DNA of 64,000 bases from Rhodanobacter sp. (lineage in GTDB: Bacteria > Pseudomonadota > Gammaproteobacteria > Xanthomonadales > Rhodanobacteraceae), in the NCBI GenBank assembly GCA_004298045.1, contig SCRM01000017.1, forward strand, positions 62,001-126,000, read 5' to 3'. The number at the start of each line of letters is the position of its first letter. The stretch's first letter is position 1. Made by a program: the position numbers and the translations under genes. The notes under the pieces were generated by a model that was not told the DNA's origin, made no database searches, and saw only the letters and a program-made list of their open reading frames with translations. Below, one piece after another: positions 29,230-35,500 of this stretch.

Positions 29230-30669
29230 TTACGCCGCCGTGCCGCCCACCGTCATCGCGTCGATCCTGAGCGTGGGCTGGCCCACGCCCACCGGCACGC
29301 TCTGGCCGTCCTTGCCGCAGATGCCGACGCCGTCGTCGAGCTGCATGTCGTTGCCGATCATCGAGACACGGGTAAGGACGTCGGGGCCGGAGCCGATCAG
29401 GGTGGCGCCCTTCACCGGCGCGGTGATCCGGCCATCCTCGATGAGGTAGGCCTCGGACGCGGAGAACACGAACTTGCCGTTGGTGATGTCGACCTGGCCG
29501 CCACCGAAGTTCGGCGCGTAAAGGCCCTTCTTCACTGAGCGGATGATCTCCTCCGGCTCGCGCTCGCCGGCCAGCATGCAGGTGTTGGTCATGCGCGGCA
29601 TCGGCAGCGCCGTGAAGGACTCGCGGCGGCCGTTACCGGTAGGCGCCATGCCCATCAGACGCGCGTTGAGCTTGTCCTGCATGTAGCCCTTGAGGATGCC
29701 ATCCTCGATCAGCACGGTGCAGTTCGTGGGCGTGCCTTCGTCGTCGATGTTGAGCGAGCCGCGCCGCCCCGGCAGCGTGCCGTCGTCCACCACGGTGACG
29801 CCCTTGGCCGCCACGCGCTGACCGAGCCGGCCGGCAAAAGCAGAGCTGCCCTTGCGGTTGAAGTCGCCTTCGAGCCCGTGGCCGATCGCCTCGTGCAGCA
29901 GCACGCCGGGCCAGCCGGGGCCGAGCACCACCGGCATCTGCCCGGCCGGCGCATCGACTGCATCCAGATTGACCAGCGCCTGGCGCACGGCCTCGTCGGC
30001 AAACGCGAACGCGCGGCCGTTTTCGATCAGCTCGCGATAGCCATACCGCCCACCGCCCCCCGCATAGCCCTGCTCGCGCCGGCCATGCGCCTCGGCAATC
30101 ACCTGCACGTTGAGCCGCACCAGCGGGCGCACATCGGCAGCCAGCGTGCCGTCGGACGCCGCGATGAGCACGGTATCCAGCGTGGCGGCCAGGCTCACGA
30201 TGACTTGCGTGATGCGCGGGTCGCGGGCGCGTGCATGCGCGTCGACCTCGCGCAGCAACGCGATCTTGTCGGCGTTCGGCAGGCTTTCCACCGGGTCGAT
30301 CGCCGGGTACAGCGCGCGCCCGCTCGCCAGCGCCAGCGGCTTGCCGGCGCCGTGGCCGTCATGCGCAATCGCCCGCGCCGCCTTCGATGCCGCCAGAAGC
30401 TGCGGCAACACGATCTCGTCGGAATATGCAAAACCGGTCTTCTCGCCGCTGATCGCGCGCACGCCCACGCCCTGCTCAATCGCGTGGCTGCCATCCTTGA
30501 CGATGCCCTCCTCCAGCGTCCACGACTCACTGCGCGAGTGCTGGAAATACAGGTCGGCGGCGTCGATCGACGGCCCCATGAGCTGGGCGAACACGCGATC
30601 CAGATCAGCCGTCGTCAATCCCCCCGGCACCAGCAGCCGGTCCTGCACCTGCGCAATGAGCTTGTCCAT
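29230..30669 (-). CDS. tldD: Metalloprotease TldD
   Basis: 479 residues with the zinc motif HEAIGH at 259-264 inside [20 protein letters not shown], and the C-terminal [25 protein letters not shown] segment. TldD with TldE (PmbA) degrades or matures peptides such as microcin B17. No tldE is in the window. tldD usually follows yhdP in gammaproteobacteria; here a porin-cytochrome gene and a 142-bp copy of this gene's 3' part lie between them. Start ATG 30669. Confidence 0.95.
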
Positions 30670-30795
30670 CGAGTCTCGCCGATCCAATCCGGCCGCTATG
30701 GTGACATGCGGCGCCGGGGTCGGAGCGTGCTTTCGACGAGATCGGCGCCTGTCGGGGGATCGATCCTGATATTTTTTTCGATACGGATGCCGTGC

Positions 30796-32190
30796 TCAGA
30801 TCGCCAGCCACACATAGCAGTAGAGCGTGTCGTTGTCCTTGGCGTTGCGACCGGCACCGTCGACGTCGTGTACCCGCCCGCTGAAGCGGTTGAAGTGGGT
30901 GTATTGCAGGCCCAGCCGCAGATTGGCCCACGGTTGCCCCCACGAGGTGGACTGGCCGAACGGGCTGTAGTTGAGCTCGATGCTTTCACCCTGCGTATTC
31001 GGCGAGCCGTCGTTGCCGTAAAGCGCAACATCCTTGCTGCCGTTGTAGACGAACGACGCCAAGGTCACACCGTAGGTATGGCGGTACCAGTAACTGCCCT
31101 TGAGGTTGAGCGACTGCAGGCTGTTGTGCAGGTGATCCGATCCACCGCTGCCATAGGTGGCGTCCAACCGCTGGCCCTCGTGGACGTACAACCCGTCGAC
31201 GGTGATCGCATGGTCGCCATTGACGTAGGTGTAGTTGGAATCCACTCCGAAGTCGCGGAACCGATCCGTTGGCCCGGGCAACGCCACCGCGTCACCGACC
31301 GCGTTGGTGCCGACCTGTCCGCGACGCATGTTCAGCATGAAGCCGCCGACCGAGAAGCTGCCGGTGGGCAGGTTCCACGTATAAGCCATGCGTGCATAGG
31401 GCGTAACCCCGCTCAAGCGGCCGTCGAAGCCGGCGTTGACGTGGCGCAGAAACGCCGGCGACAACGAGCGATAGCCGCCCAGCTCCATGTACCAGGCGCC
31501 ATCCAGCTGCAGGTAGGCGCTGACACCGACCACCTGCGCGGCCAGCCCGCCCAGCAGCATTGGCTGGGCAGGTGCTTCGGGGGCCAGATCGGCCGACAGG
31601 TACGGGTACTTCCACGCCGGTGCGGTGTTGAACACGTCGCTGACGGTGGGGTTGTTGTTGAGCGAGATGCCCCAGATGCCGCTGTGGTTGCCGTGGCTGA
31701 ACATGCGCGCATAGCGCCAGTCCATGTTGTCCCAGCCGAGCAGGCCGCCGTTCTCCGAGTAGGTGGCCTGCGCGAACACGCCGACGTGCTCGCTCAGTCG
31801 GCCGGCGAGGAACACCGACGCCTGCTGCAGCTCGGTGTTGTCGTTGGTGCCGAAGCCCTTGGCCGGCGCCTCGGTCTGCGCCTTTTGCGTGTGCGTGAAC
31901 GATTCGACCAGCATTGCCGAGAGCGGCACGTCGGTCTGGTCGCCCACCTTCATGGTGTAGCCCATCAGCTTGAACTGGCGCCCGAACTGGGTGAGCTCCG
32001 GTCCAAAGCCGCCTACGTGACAGGCCACACACGGCTGCCTCGTCTGTCGTGCATATGAAGGCACCGCCAGCACCATGCTGGGCACCCCCAGCAGCCCCGC
32101 GAGCACGATCAAGGCTATCCAGTATGGCGGGCGATGCATGGCAGCAGACCAACCCGGAATCAAACCATTCCAGCGAGTGTTCATGTGCAT
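30796..32190 (-). CDS. Monoheme c-type cytochrome fused to an outer-membrane beta-barrel (Cyc2-like architecture)
   Basis: 464 residues. A signal peptide ends near residue 43 (GLLGVPSMVLA). The mature start VPSYARQTRQPCVACH holds a single c-type heme site, Cys54-x-x-Cys57-His58, followed by FGPELTQFGRQFKLMGYTM. The remaining ~390 residues alternate hydrophobic and polar positions with many Trp, Tyr and Gly, as in a 16-18 strand porin, and end in an amphipathic YVWLAI strand. The layout resembles Cyc2 iron oxidases, but the heme region belongs to a sister family often annotated only as cytochrome c. It could move electrons across the outer membrane or bind metal/sulfur donors. ATG 32190 has an AGGAAG Shine-Dalgarno; ATG 32184 is the alternative. 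It lies between tldD and a tldD fragment. Confidence 0.8.
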   Translation of the reverse strand: MHMNTRWNGLIPGWSAAMHRPPYWIALIVLAGLLGVPSMVLAVPSYARQTRQPCVACHVGGFGPELTQFGRQFKLMGYTMKVGDQTDVPLSAMLVESFTHTQKAQTEAPAKGFGTNDNTELQQASVFLAGRLSEHVGVFAQATYSENGGLLGWDNMDWRYARMFSHGNHSGIWGISLNNNPTVSDVFNTAPAWKYPYLSADLAPEAPAQPMLLGGLAAQVVGVSAYLQLDGAWYMELGGYRSLSPAFLRHVNAGFDGRLSGVTPYARMAYTWNLPTGSFSVGGFMLNMRRGQVGTNAVGDAVALPGPTDRFRDFGVDSNYTYVNGDHAITVDGLYVHEGQRLDATYGSGGSDHLHNSLQSLNLKGSYWYRHTYGVTLASFVYNGSKDVALYGNDGSPNTQGESIELNYSPFGQSTSWGQPWANLRLGLQYTHFNRFSGRVHDVDGAGRNAKDNDTLYCYVWLAI

Positions 32191-32242
32191 GCTTCCTACG
32201 CGTCCAGCGTGGTGGCTGGGTACGGACGCAGTCTTGAACCAA

Positions 32243-32270
32243 CGGATACCCGTATATTGATTTCCGTCAA
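32243..32270 (-). promoter_or_regulatory. Possible sigma-70 promoter of the porin-cytochrome gene
   Basis: TTGACG (plus 32265-32270) and TATCCG (plus 32243-32248) are 16 bp apart on the minus strand and would start transcription about 45 bp before the ATG. The -35 is good, the -10 is weak. Confidence 0.4.
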
Positions 32271-32320
32271 CAGCCACCTGCCCGCCACCGACGCAAAGTG
32301 CCGCAGGCTGGCGCAGTGCC

Positions 32321-32462
32321 GATGAGGTAGGCCTCGGACGCGGAGAACACAAATTCGCCGTTGGTGATGTCGACCTGGCCGCTGCCGAAGTTGGGGGCGT
32401 ACAGGCCCTTCTTCACCGAGCGGATGCTTTCCTCCGGCCCGCAAGCGCCAGGCAGCATGCAG
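32321..32462 (-). pseudogene. Duplicated fragment of tldD
   Basis: About 142 bp aligns without gaps to tldD positions 29440-29581, with roughly 85-90 percent identity by eye. In the tldD frame it still reads [20 protein letters not shown] and [19 protein letters not shown] with no stop, and many differences are third-position changes. It has no start, no zinc site and no C-terminal end, so it is a relic, not a gene. It lies upstream of the porin-cytochrome, in the only gap over 300 bp of the window (32191-32585). The remaining ~120 bp before yhdP hold nothing recognisable. Confidence 0.85.
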
Positions 32463-32585
32463 GCAAAAAGGTGCCGGGGACAATTTGCACAATCTGCAAG
32501 ATGGATTCCCCGGTCGCAAACGGGCATCCCCTGAATTGCACCCCGGCGCCACACCCTATAGTCGGAAATGGCACCTCGCATTTCG

Positions 32586-35500
32586 CTAGGGCACCGACGA
32601 ACTCGCCGCCGGTGCGTCGCTGCGCAGCGGCGTGGTGACCACCGGCGGACTCGGCGCAGTGGGCAGCAAGGGCGGACGCTGGCTGCTCCGGGCGGCCGGC
32701 AAGTTGTGTTTTTCCACCAGCGTCATCACCGGTTTGTCCCAGCTGCCGGTGACGTGGTAGCGGGCACTGATGGTTTTGTTGAGGCCTTTGCCGAGCAGGC
32801 CCTGCACCGCAAAGCCGGCGGCCGCACCGACTGGCCCGCCGACGACGGCGCCGAGCACCGGCAAGCTGTTGCCGAAGTGCGGCACCACCACCACCTGCTG
32901 GTCGTAGTCGCGCGCGCGCAGGCCGGTACGGCCGGTGATGCCGATCTGCGCTGCCGGGCCCTTGATGAGGAGGTTGCTGGTGGTGGCGCTGCCATCGGCA
33001 AGGTGGAAGTCGCCATCGATGGAATCAAAGCCCAACCCCTTGCCGAACACGTCGCCAAAATCGAGCGTGAGCCGACGCGGCAACTCGGCCAGCGACACCA
33101 GGCCGAACAGGCGTCCCATGCCGGGGCCGACGTCGGGGATGTGGCCGTCGCTGACATGCACTGACAGCGTGCCGGTGGCGTTGGCCAGGCTGAATGACGA
33201 CGGCGCGCCTGGCCAGCTGGCGTCGAGCTGGTCGCTGGTCTTGCCGCCGGTAACCAGACCGTTGTAGCCGAACGCGCCAAGCATCTTGCCCAGGTCGTCG
33301 GCGGCAAAGCCGATGCGCATGCGGGTGTGGCTGTTGGTGGCCGTGCCGTTCCAGTCGCCGCTGCCGGTGAGCTGCACGCTCGGCGACAGCGCACGCAACT
33401 GGTCGATGTGCATGCCGCGCTCAGTCGGCCAGGTTTCCAGCCGCGCTTCGCCGAGCCTGGCGTCGCCGAAGGTAAGGTCGCCCACCCACAGGTGGAACGG
33501 CGGCAGCGCGGCCGGGTTCACGCCGGTATCGGCCGGGTCGGGCTCGGGCTGGCTGACGGCGGCCTTGTCGGCGGTCGGGTTGCCCGGCCAGTACAGGCGC
33601 TTGAGGCGTGCAGTGATGCCGCGCTTGGCCAGCTCGTGCTCGGGCACACTGAACTGCCCGGCCATCGCCGCCCCCTCCACCGTCGCCACCAGGCTGTCGT
33701 TGCGCGGCGTCAGCTGCAGTGTCATCGGGCCGAGCGGGCGGCCAAACCATTGCGCTTGCGCGGTGCCGACATCCACGCTCTCCAACGCCGGGCCACCACC
33801 ACCCGTGCCTCCGGCGGTGAACGCCACGGCCTGTTGCACCCAACCGGTGACATCCAGCGTGGCGGCGTGGCCACGCACGCGCAGCCCCTGCGCCGGCAGC
33901 GTCGTCGGCATCTGCGCGCCAAATGCCAGCGTGCCGGCCAGCGGCTTGCCGGGTGCCGCCAGGCGCAGGAAACCACGCGCCACCTGGCCGAGCGATACCT
34001 TGAGGTCAGCCCCGTCGATGGGCAGGCTCAGGCTGACGTGCAACGGCAACTCGGCGGTGGCTGCCTTGGCCAGCGGCGCCGGGGCGTCCAGCGTGGTGCC
34101 GACCAAAGTGGAGTCGAGGCTGAGCGTTTGTGTCGGCGCGCCACCATCGGTTGGCCGCGTCAACCGGAATCCGATGTCGTACAGGCTGCGGCCGCTGCCC
34201 AGCGGGTTGAGCCAGTCGAGCGCGGGGTAGCCAAGGGTCAGATCGCTGAACCGGAAAGCGCCGCGCAAATCCACCGCCACCGGCACGTCCGCGTCGCCGG
34301 TGGCGCCGGCAATGGCGAGGTCGAGCACCGCCGGCTGGCCGTGGAAGCGGCCTTCGAGCGGACCGGCGTGAAAGCCCGTTCGATCGAACGTGGCCGGGCC
34401 GCTCAGCTGGTCGAGCTTCAGCGTCCAGTCCGGCTCGCTCACGTCGACGTGGTCGAGCTTGGCCTGGCCGGTAAGCACGGCGGTTTCCGGCATTCCCAGC
34501 GGCAGCGACAGGTGGAAGCCGAAACTGCCGGTACCGCCGAGTTTCAGCTTGGCGAGGGTTTTCGCCTGCTGGTTTGCGATTGGGCTCTTGCGCACGAAAT
34601 CCAGCAGGTTGGCCGCGTTGCCGTGGCCGTCGACGTTCAAATCGAGCGTGGCGTCGGCAAAGTCGGGAAACAGCGCCACCGCCTGGTCGACCTTCACCCC
34701 CAGCGCCTGCCCACCGTCGGCCTCGACCAGCATGCCGCTGTTGATAAAATTGGCGATGGCATGCACGCCGGTCGCATCCGGCCAATCCGGCGCGTAATGA
34801 AGTTTCAGGTCGCTGATTTCCGCACGCGCTTCGAACCGGCCCTCGTGGTGGTGGAACGGCCAATCCTTGAGGTCGCCGCGCACAGCGACGTCGGCACCAT
34901 CGATGCGCCCGCCGAGCAGCGCGTGATCGAGCCACGCGACGGTACCGGGCGACATCACGCTCACCGGCCAGAACAGCTTGGCGGCTTGCACATCGGCGTG
35001 GTTCACGCGGGCGTAGAGATCGAGAAACGGCGGGCCGCCGGCGGCGTGCAGGCGCATCTCGCCACGCAGTTGTCCGCCATAGCCGGTGCCGGCGAAATCC
35101 AGTGGCGCCAGGCCGATATGCCAATCGCCGTCCGCCTGCCACGCAGCCACGGTGCCGGCGAGGTTCGCCAGCGCGAACGGGGTGCGAAACATCGGCCGCG
35201 CATCCACCGTGGCCGGCTGCGCCGGCAGGCTCAGCGACAGCGCCTCGCCGTCGCCGCGCAAGCTGCCGCGCAGGCCGCTGACGCCGGGGATGGCCGCCGA
35301 ATGATCGATGCCGAGGCCGCTGAAATCGGCGCTGAGCCGGGTCAGGCCTGCCCCCTTGCTCCACGCGAGGTTGACCGTGTCGAGCCGGCCGCGCGGGTGG
35401 CCGCTGCCAACCCAGGCGACGAGGGTCGGCGGCAGTTTGGGCAGCGCCCCGAGCCAAGGGACCAGCGGCGCAAGTTGCAGTTCTCTCGCCGCCGCTTCGA

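Follow-up and report, generated by a model that had tools for sequence, protein, structure and literature searches.

The question raised by this locus is whether an open reading frame beside tldD in a Rhodanobacter genome encodes a protein that moves electrons across the outer membrane and, if it does, from what donor, in which direction and under which control. The window (the whole 64,000-nucleotide stretch of DNA that was analyzed) carries the frame at 30796..32190 on the minus strand, with 464 amino acids and a stop codon; it was defined by its translation, by homologues and by a structural model. As judged from sequence, the gene product belongs to the Cyc2 family, whose members join a one-heme cytochrome to an outer-membrane pore and can bring electrons, for example those of dissolved iron, into the cell. 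Proteins of this kind are already known, and the role in this organism is a predicted one.

Protein Architecture, Conservation and Predicted Fold

The protein begins with a signal-peptide-like hydrophobic leader, residues 1-42 (32065..32190, minus strand), which was read by eye from the translation, ends ...SMVLA42 and includes Met18 as a second possible start. The heme domain, residues 43-88 (31927..32064, minus strand), follows directly and contains (A)VPSYARQT, the heme-binding sequence CVACH at residues 54-58 (32017..32031, minus strand; placed by translation and alignment) and PEL. This is the only CxxCH (C54-x-x-C57-H58) in the 464 residues, and no second heme site was present. Residues 90-463 (30802..31923, minus strand) were assigned to a 16-strand beta barrel from an AlphaFold2 model, Foldseek and VIA-align. 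The model, built on an alignment of 60 homologues, had a mean pLDDT of 86 and a pTM of 0.83, and consisted of 16 long strands, preceded by a short, helical heme segment (helices at residues 45-50 and 68-75). Top Foldseek matches were AlgE and 16-strand porins (best E 2.5e-9, TM-scores about 0.4-0.5), and VIA-align gave Z scores of 22.3 for OmpC, 22.1 for OprO (4rjw) and 21.6 for OprP (2o4v). The first-pass annotation had described a single CxxCH right after the leader and a barrel beyond it; both were borne out, the leader by eye. Its Cyc2-like layout and the idea of an outer-membrane electron conduit likewise drew support from the sequence, from the fold as predicted and from the genes found around the homologues in relatives.

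Homologues at E<=1e-5 were found at 94 match places in 81 of the 147 sampled genomes of the family, and in 4 of the 11 sampled genomes of the genus, including the source genome, where the gene is single copy. The frame at 30796-32190 was accepted as a real gene because of these 81 genomes and because exactly one CxxCH occurs in 33/33 examined rows of the clade to which it belongs (clade A). The gene is absent from 7/11 sampled genomes of its own genus; with so patchy a distribution it is therefore dispensable, a point against the conduit reading preferred below. The nearest named relatives, 87% identical, were Rhodanobacter sp. FW104-R8, R. thiooxydans LCS2 and a Rhodanobacter MAG. Searches of Pfam, NCBIfam and PDB sequences with the protein returned nothing useful (one chance Pfam match, E 0.17, below cut-off). 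Two other genomes of the sample held several Cyc2 places, four in G104 and three in G066, from more than one group in each, and the homologue of L064 (G008) is split over two reading frames and is probably a pseudogene or a sequencing error.

A barrel that resembles OprO, OprP and OmpC would also suit a porin for solutes whose heme has just a structural or regulatory part. This reading is considered highly improbable: the heme segment is strongly conserved, with eight residues (C54, C57, H58, P64, L66, G70, F73 and K74) identical in 97/97 full-length rows, and two groups of relatives (B and C, below) encode the protein with periplasmic cytochromes c in most loci. In the same 97 rows, H58 of CxxCH was the only invariant histidine and no methionine of the mature part was invariant, while Lys74 was; the sixth ligand of the heme may be a lysine, or it may differ from protein to protein.

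Relationship to Cyc2 Proteins

Marks of Cyc2 given in PMC8406198 are AxPxFAR[QK][TY] upstream of CxxCH and PxL downstream at a spacing of four. Like Cyc2 proteins, which have a leader, a single CxxCH and a length of at least 365, the window protein has a leader (by eye), one CxxCH and 464 residues. Its heme flank, AVPSYARQT, is one change from the consensus (Tyr46 for Phe) and fails the strict form. The strict pattern PxFAR[QK][TY] was found in 21/33 clade A rows and in 52/97 full-length rows, and in 80/97 when Phe or Tyr was allowed. Because the Cyc2 encoded by the rus operon of locus L133 also fails the strict form (AVPAFARQL), the flank motif works as a consensus. PxL is P64-E65-L66 in the window protein, with P and L identical in 97/97 rows; it lies five residues from CxxCH, compared with the four printed in PMC8406198.

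Two rus-operon proteins were aligned end to end with the window protein in two-sequence comparisons, giving 29% identity (E 4e-65) for L133 and 30% identity (E 3e-48) for L186. The "Acidithiobacillus type" of these two rests on rusticyanin and operon order. The order in L133 is cyc2, cup-like, coxB, coxA, coxC-like, ctaA-like, ctaB and rusticyanin-like (136.9 bits, under the cut-off of 146.7), and that in L186 (G526) is cyc2, diheme cyc1, cup-like, coxB, coxA, coxC-like, coxD-like, ctaB-like and rusticyanin (200 bits, over the same cut-off), where names ending in "-like" were assigned from order and sequence. The L186 order is close to that printed for Acidithiobacillus in PMC10654088. Rusticyanin and coxA were present in 5/5 loci labeled rus (tblastn). 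A model of the L186 Cyc2 likewise had 16 strands, although its confidence was lower (pLDDT 68.7). Other Cyc2 copies of Acidithiobacillus-like genomes (L185, L188, L190) lie outside the rus operon, near genes like those for membrane subunits of complex I or related hydrogenases; L185:7219-8160 matches PF00146 (NADHdh).

A class-wide profile search gave matches in 64/369 genomes. At 31 places, the window's included, nearly the whole profile was covered at E<=1e-80, and in genome G409 a full-length relative lies 7 kb from a rusticyanin-like gene. Most other matches covered the N-terminal heme region only, and this second tier may include proteins of the Cyc2PV-1 or Cyt572 type. A quick tree without bootstraps was built from 94 of 109 proteins, 15 near-copies being left out. 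A single full-length group took in both the rus-operon proteins and the window's clade and was separated from 12 N-terminal-only rows (SH-aLRT 86). Support was 93 for clade A, to which the window protein belongs, and 99 for a set that unites it with clade C and two further rows. Group B was not a clade; L069 fell apart from it and L138 inside it.

The first-pass annotation had placed the protein in a poorly described sister family. That claim was given up in view of the full-length alignment with rus-operon Cyc2 and of Rhodanobacteraceae homologues already in print: PMC10654088 includes them in a similarity network, linked to Acidithiobacillus Cyc2, and PMC5566968 names a Cyc2 homologue in the Rhodanobacter of culture KS.

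The tldD Locus and Possible Transfer

An intact tldD (29230..30687, minus strand) is the downstream neighbor, and a 144-base tldD remnant (32320..32463, minus strand), 88% identical to it, lies upstream. In the relatives L035, L036 and L037 the order is rng-yhdP-tldD-gene, with an intact tldD upstream of the gene, and the remnant looks like what is left of an old copy that decayed after tldD had been duplicated or moved. The earlier description of the gene as inserted beside tldD has to be corrected, since the place is common to L035, L036 and L037. A functional link between cyc2 and TldD was rejected, as the gene adjoins tldD in only 4, all close kin, of the 61 loci made up of the window and L035-L094 (in L062 the gene caller missed the gene).

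The window gene is 88% and 87% identical to its counterparts in G039 and G018, of another genus, versus 63-67% to those of G127, G137 and G082, of its own genus. Identities to G039 and G127 were 88% and 90% for tldD, 89% and 87% for rng, and 59% and 58% for yhdP. Unlike tldD, the gene is much nearer the other genus, though it lies beside tldD in all three genomes. Either a difference in rate or an exchange between genera at this one site is possible.

Gene Surroundings in the Family

From the 94 match places, 60 stretches with flanks were examined and divided into clade A (33 rows including the window, the split gene of L064 being left out), group B (11 loci) and group C (16 loci: L068, L078, L080 and L082-L094). 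Across the 33 rows of clade A no conserved partner gene was found. The window-type gene had no dedicated periplasmic partner beside it, and this lack counts against the conduit reading preferred below. In group B, a cytochrome c4-type gene directly follows cyc2 in 9/11 loci (confirmed as diheme by Pfam in L077). In group C, tblastn placed on the strand of cyc2 a cytochrome b561 gene just upstream in 14/16 loci, a monoheme cytochrome c gene just downstream in 14/16, and a gene for a barrel-like protein in 15/16; an ECF sigma factor (15/16) and a zinc-finger anti-sigma factor (15/16), both about 8 kb away in L078, and an S8 protease (14/16), again on that strand, complete the set. The group C genes could make up a complete chain from quinone to cell surface with its own sigma factor. 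Because groups B and C mostly carry their own electron carriers, an electron-transfer role of the family is supported.

Genes divergent from and beside cyc2 included Fnr-type genes in L073 and L195 (222.8 and 219.4 bits, just under the cut-off of 228), hemN in L069 and a NorB-type gene in L070.

An FNR-Type Box Upstream of the Gene

The FNR consensus is TTGAT-N4-ATCAA, and other regulators of the Crp/Fnr family could read such a site. A predicted FNR/ANR-type box, TTGACGGAAATCAA (32257..32270, minus strand), stands 80 bases before the start codon and is one mismatch from this consensus. A degenerate pattern, TTGAYNNNNRTCAA, was kept in the window and in 4/4 close relatives aligned. The sequence AAGACT (32230..32235, minus strand), about 31 bases from the center of the box, is identical in the window and the four aligned relatives; it is possibly a -10 element, which is a weak inference. 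A sigma-70 scan of 30600-32600 gave no promoter-like site, and Rfam gave nothing over the gathering score in 30000-33000.

Within 270 bases upstream of the gene, TTGAYNNNNRTCAA was found in 28/33 rows of clade A, 7/11 of group B and 0/16 of group C, compared with 25/431 control genes from the same loci whose intergenic room was 60 bases or more (Fisher p 2e-25 for clade A and 1e-6 for group B, with relatives that are not independent and controls that include genes resembling FNR targets). Control genes were called with codon usage from verified genes. When up to one mismatch to TTGAT-N4-ATCAA was allowed, the counts were 24/33 for clade A versus 29/431 for controls, or 38/470 for controls from a self-trained caller that misread some high-GC loci. 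Outside the family, TTGAYNNNNRTCAA preceded 11/32 full-length genes not labeled rus (the Rhodanobacteraceae control is not matched to those organisms), 1/12 N-terminal-only genes and 0/5 rus-operon cyc2 genes.

The source genome (3.26 Mb) has 11 TTGAYNNNNRTCAA sites versus 2 for the reversed pattern. Seven of these sites precede the window gene, nirK (TIGR02376, 369.3 bits; its product includes a cytochrome c domain), hemN (TIGR00538, 565.8 bits), a gene for a diheme peroxidase/MauG protein, one for a b561, an fnr-like gene and, at a distance of about 370 bases, a cytochrome c/NorB-like pair; Fnr-family homologues are present in the genome. The box suggests that the gene is switched on at low oxygen, together with denitrification genes, presumably through activation rather than repression. 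Two observations count against this part of the preferred reading: the other 4/11 sites have no anaerobic-type gene adjoining, and the sister clade, group C, is without the box (0/16). No literature linking Cyc2 with FNR- or ANR-type control was found in a search without preprints and with few subscription journals. What appears new here is thus the putative control of the gene by an FNR-type box; the homologues themselves are already in print.

A role in protection instead of energy supply could also place the gene with these companions. Iron(II) would be oxidized at the surface, so as to avoid its reaction with periplasmic nitrite or NO, or the heme would handle peroxide or NO. The box common to the gene, nirK, the diheme peroxidase and the NorB-like pair fits this role, as does the divergent NorB-type gene of L070. 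It is nevertheless judged improbable: no catalytic feature was seen beyond one heme, and a surface oxidase would still require an electron acceptor chain.

Genomic Capacity and Direction of Electron Flow

In the source genome (assembly 95.9% complete), no match to rusticyanin (TIGR03095) was obtained at E<=1e-10 and none to RuBisCO at E<=1e-5. The rusticyanin result agrees with the annotation's statement that no other iron-oxidation gene was visible, within the scope of that search of the genome. Present were narG (cut by a contig end), nirK, six COX1-family genes and c4-like matches at six places. Across the family, nirK occurred in 30/48 genomes of groups A and B versus 40/99 others (p 0.014, a weak result that ignores kinship) and narG in 13/48 versus 15/99 (p 0.12), and such weak co-occurrence counts against the conduit reading preferred below; nirK was depleted in the remaining genomes, those assigned to group C (5/33 versus 65/114). 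For these counts, genomes without a fetched stretch were put in A or C by identity.

These data bear on the alternative that the protein is a Cyc2 iron oxidase of the ordinary kind, with which the cell would grow lithoautotrophically on Fe(II) as Acidithiobacillus does. Such a role is suggested by full-length homology to rus-operon Cyc2 and by the same predicted fold, and is made very unlikely by the lack of rusticyanin and RuBisCO at the thresholds above, by the box, which is missing from all five rus-operon genes examined, and by the patchy occurrence of the gene within the genus.

The reading preferred here, to which about an even chance is given, is an outer-membrane Cyc2 conduit, probably for Fe(II), that is induced at low oxygen and feeds periplasmic cytochromes and denitrification. 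The N-terminal one-heme domain would sit at or in the periplasmic mouth of a 16-strand porin; a soluble donor outside the cell, in all likelihood Fe(II) rather than another, would pass an electron to the heme, the heme to periplasmic cytochromes c, and these to terminal oxidases, to the heme-fused nitrite reductase NirK or to the diheme peroxidase. The stand-alone gene would be switched on by an FNR-type regulator at low oxygen, alongside genes for denitrification and anaerobic heme synthesis, and the protein would provide an auxiliary, mixotrophic electron input and not an autotrophic iron pathway. Auxiliary uptake in a microaerobic or denitrifying life is favored because of the family and fold, the box, the lack of rusticyanin and RuBisCO, and the presence of narG, nirK, c4-like and COX1 genes. 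The periplasmic side of the heme, the inward direction, Fe(II) as donor and the partner proteins are what we infer; for Cyc2, PMC8406198 argues that the heme lies at the periplasmic mouth and that the donor is dissolved. In published work, the Rhodanobacter of culture KS is modeled as a mixotrophic Fe(II) oxidizer and NO detoxifier (PMC12622760), and a Rhodanobacter isolate from the same culture is reported not to oxidize Fe(II) alone (PMC11366258), which counts against the preferred reading.

The main rival is flow in the opposite direction, with electrons of the quinone pool or periplasm exported to extracellular acceptors at low oxygen. It is thought unlikely, yet less so than the other alternatives. 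The FNR-type box would serve export as well, fermentation-type genes (phosphoketolase, phosphate acetyltransferase) lie near cyc2 in L048 and L044, and in sister group C the genes for b561, Cyc2 and cytochrome c occur together, an arrangement that could run outward from quinol. On the other hand, three Cyc2 proteins, one per cluster, are reported to oxidize Fe(II) (PMC8406198), no partner for outward transfer was seen next to the gene, and group C is the group without the box.

More broadly, and with somewhat less confidence than is given to the inward conduit itself, it may be proposed that FNR control extends to many Cyc2 proteins of proteobacteria that are encoded outside rus operons, and that these exchange electrons with the outside at low oxygen, the Rhodanobacteraceae conduit feeding denitrification. 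If true, a conduit of this kind would explain why organisms not known as iron oxidizers keep Cyc2; the function of homologues in such bacteria is a question raised by the Cyc2 authors themselves (PMC8406198). The conserved box that ties cyc2 to nirK, hemN and the diheme peroxidase provides a concrete condition for testing the role of Cyc2, and the bacterial family has cultivable members.

Comparison with Known Systems

The closest known counterparts are the Cyc2 proteins of rus operons (L186, L133 and three more), which have in common with the window protein a leader, a single CxxCH, an AxPxFARQT-like flank and PxL, alignment over the full length at 29-30% identity, and a 16-strand barrel. They differ in that the window gene has no adjoining cyc1-cup-cox-rus genes and is preceded by an FNR-type box, which none of the five rus-operon genes has; in addition, the window protein has Tyr46 in place of their Phe, and five residues between CxxCH and PxL compared with three in the Cyc2 of L186. 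In group B, the pair of cyc2 and a c4-type gene is the same pair as cyc2-cyc1 of the rus operon. The printed Rhodanobacteraceae homologues (PMC10654088, PMC5566968) are from the same bacterial family as the window protein and were likened to it by description; the portions available of these two sources give no clades, gene surroundings or promoter box for them. Literature descriptions assign the same architecture to Cyc2PV-1 of Mariprofundus (Cluster 1) and Cyt572 of Leptospirillum (Cluster 3). The phosphate porins OprO and OprP are alike in predicted fold (Z about 22) but have 11% identity and no heme domain; the same two porins are the structural match given for Cyc2PV-1 in PMC8406198.
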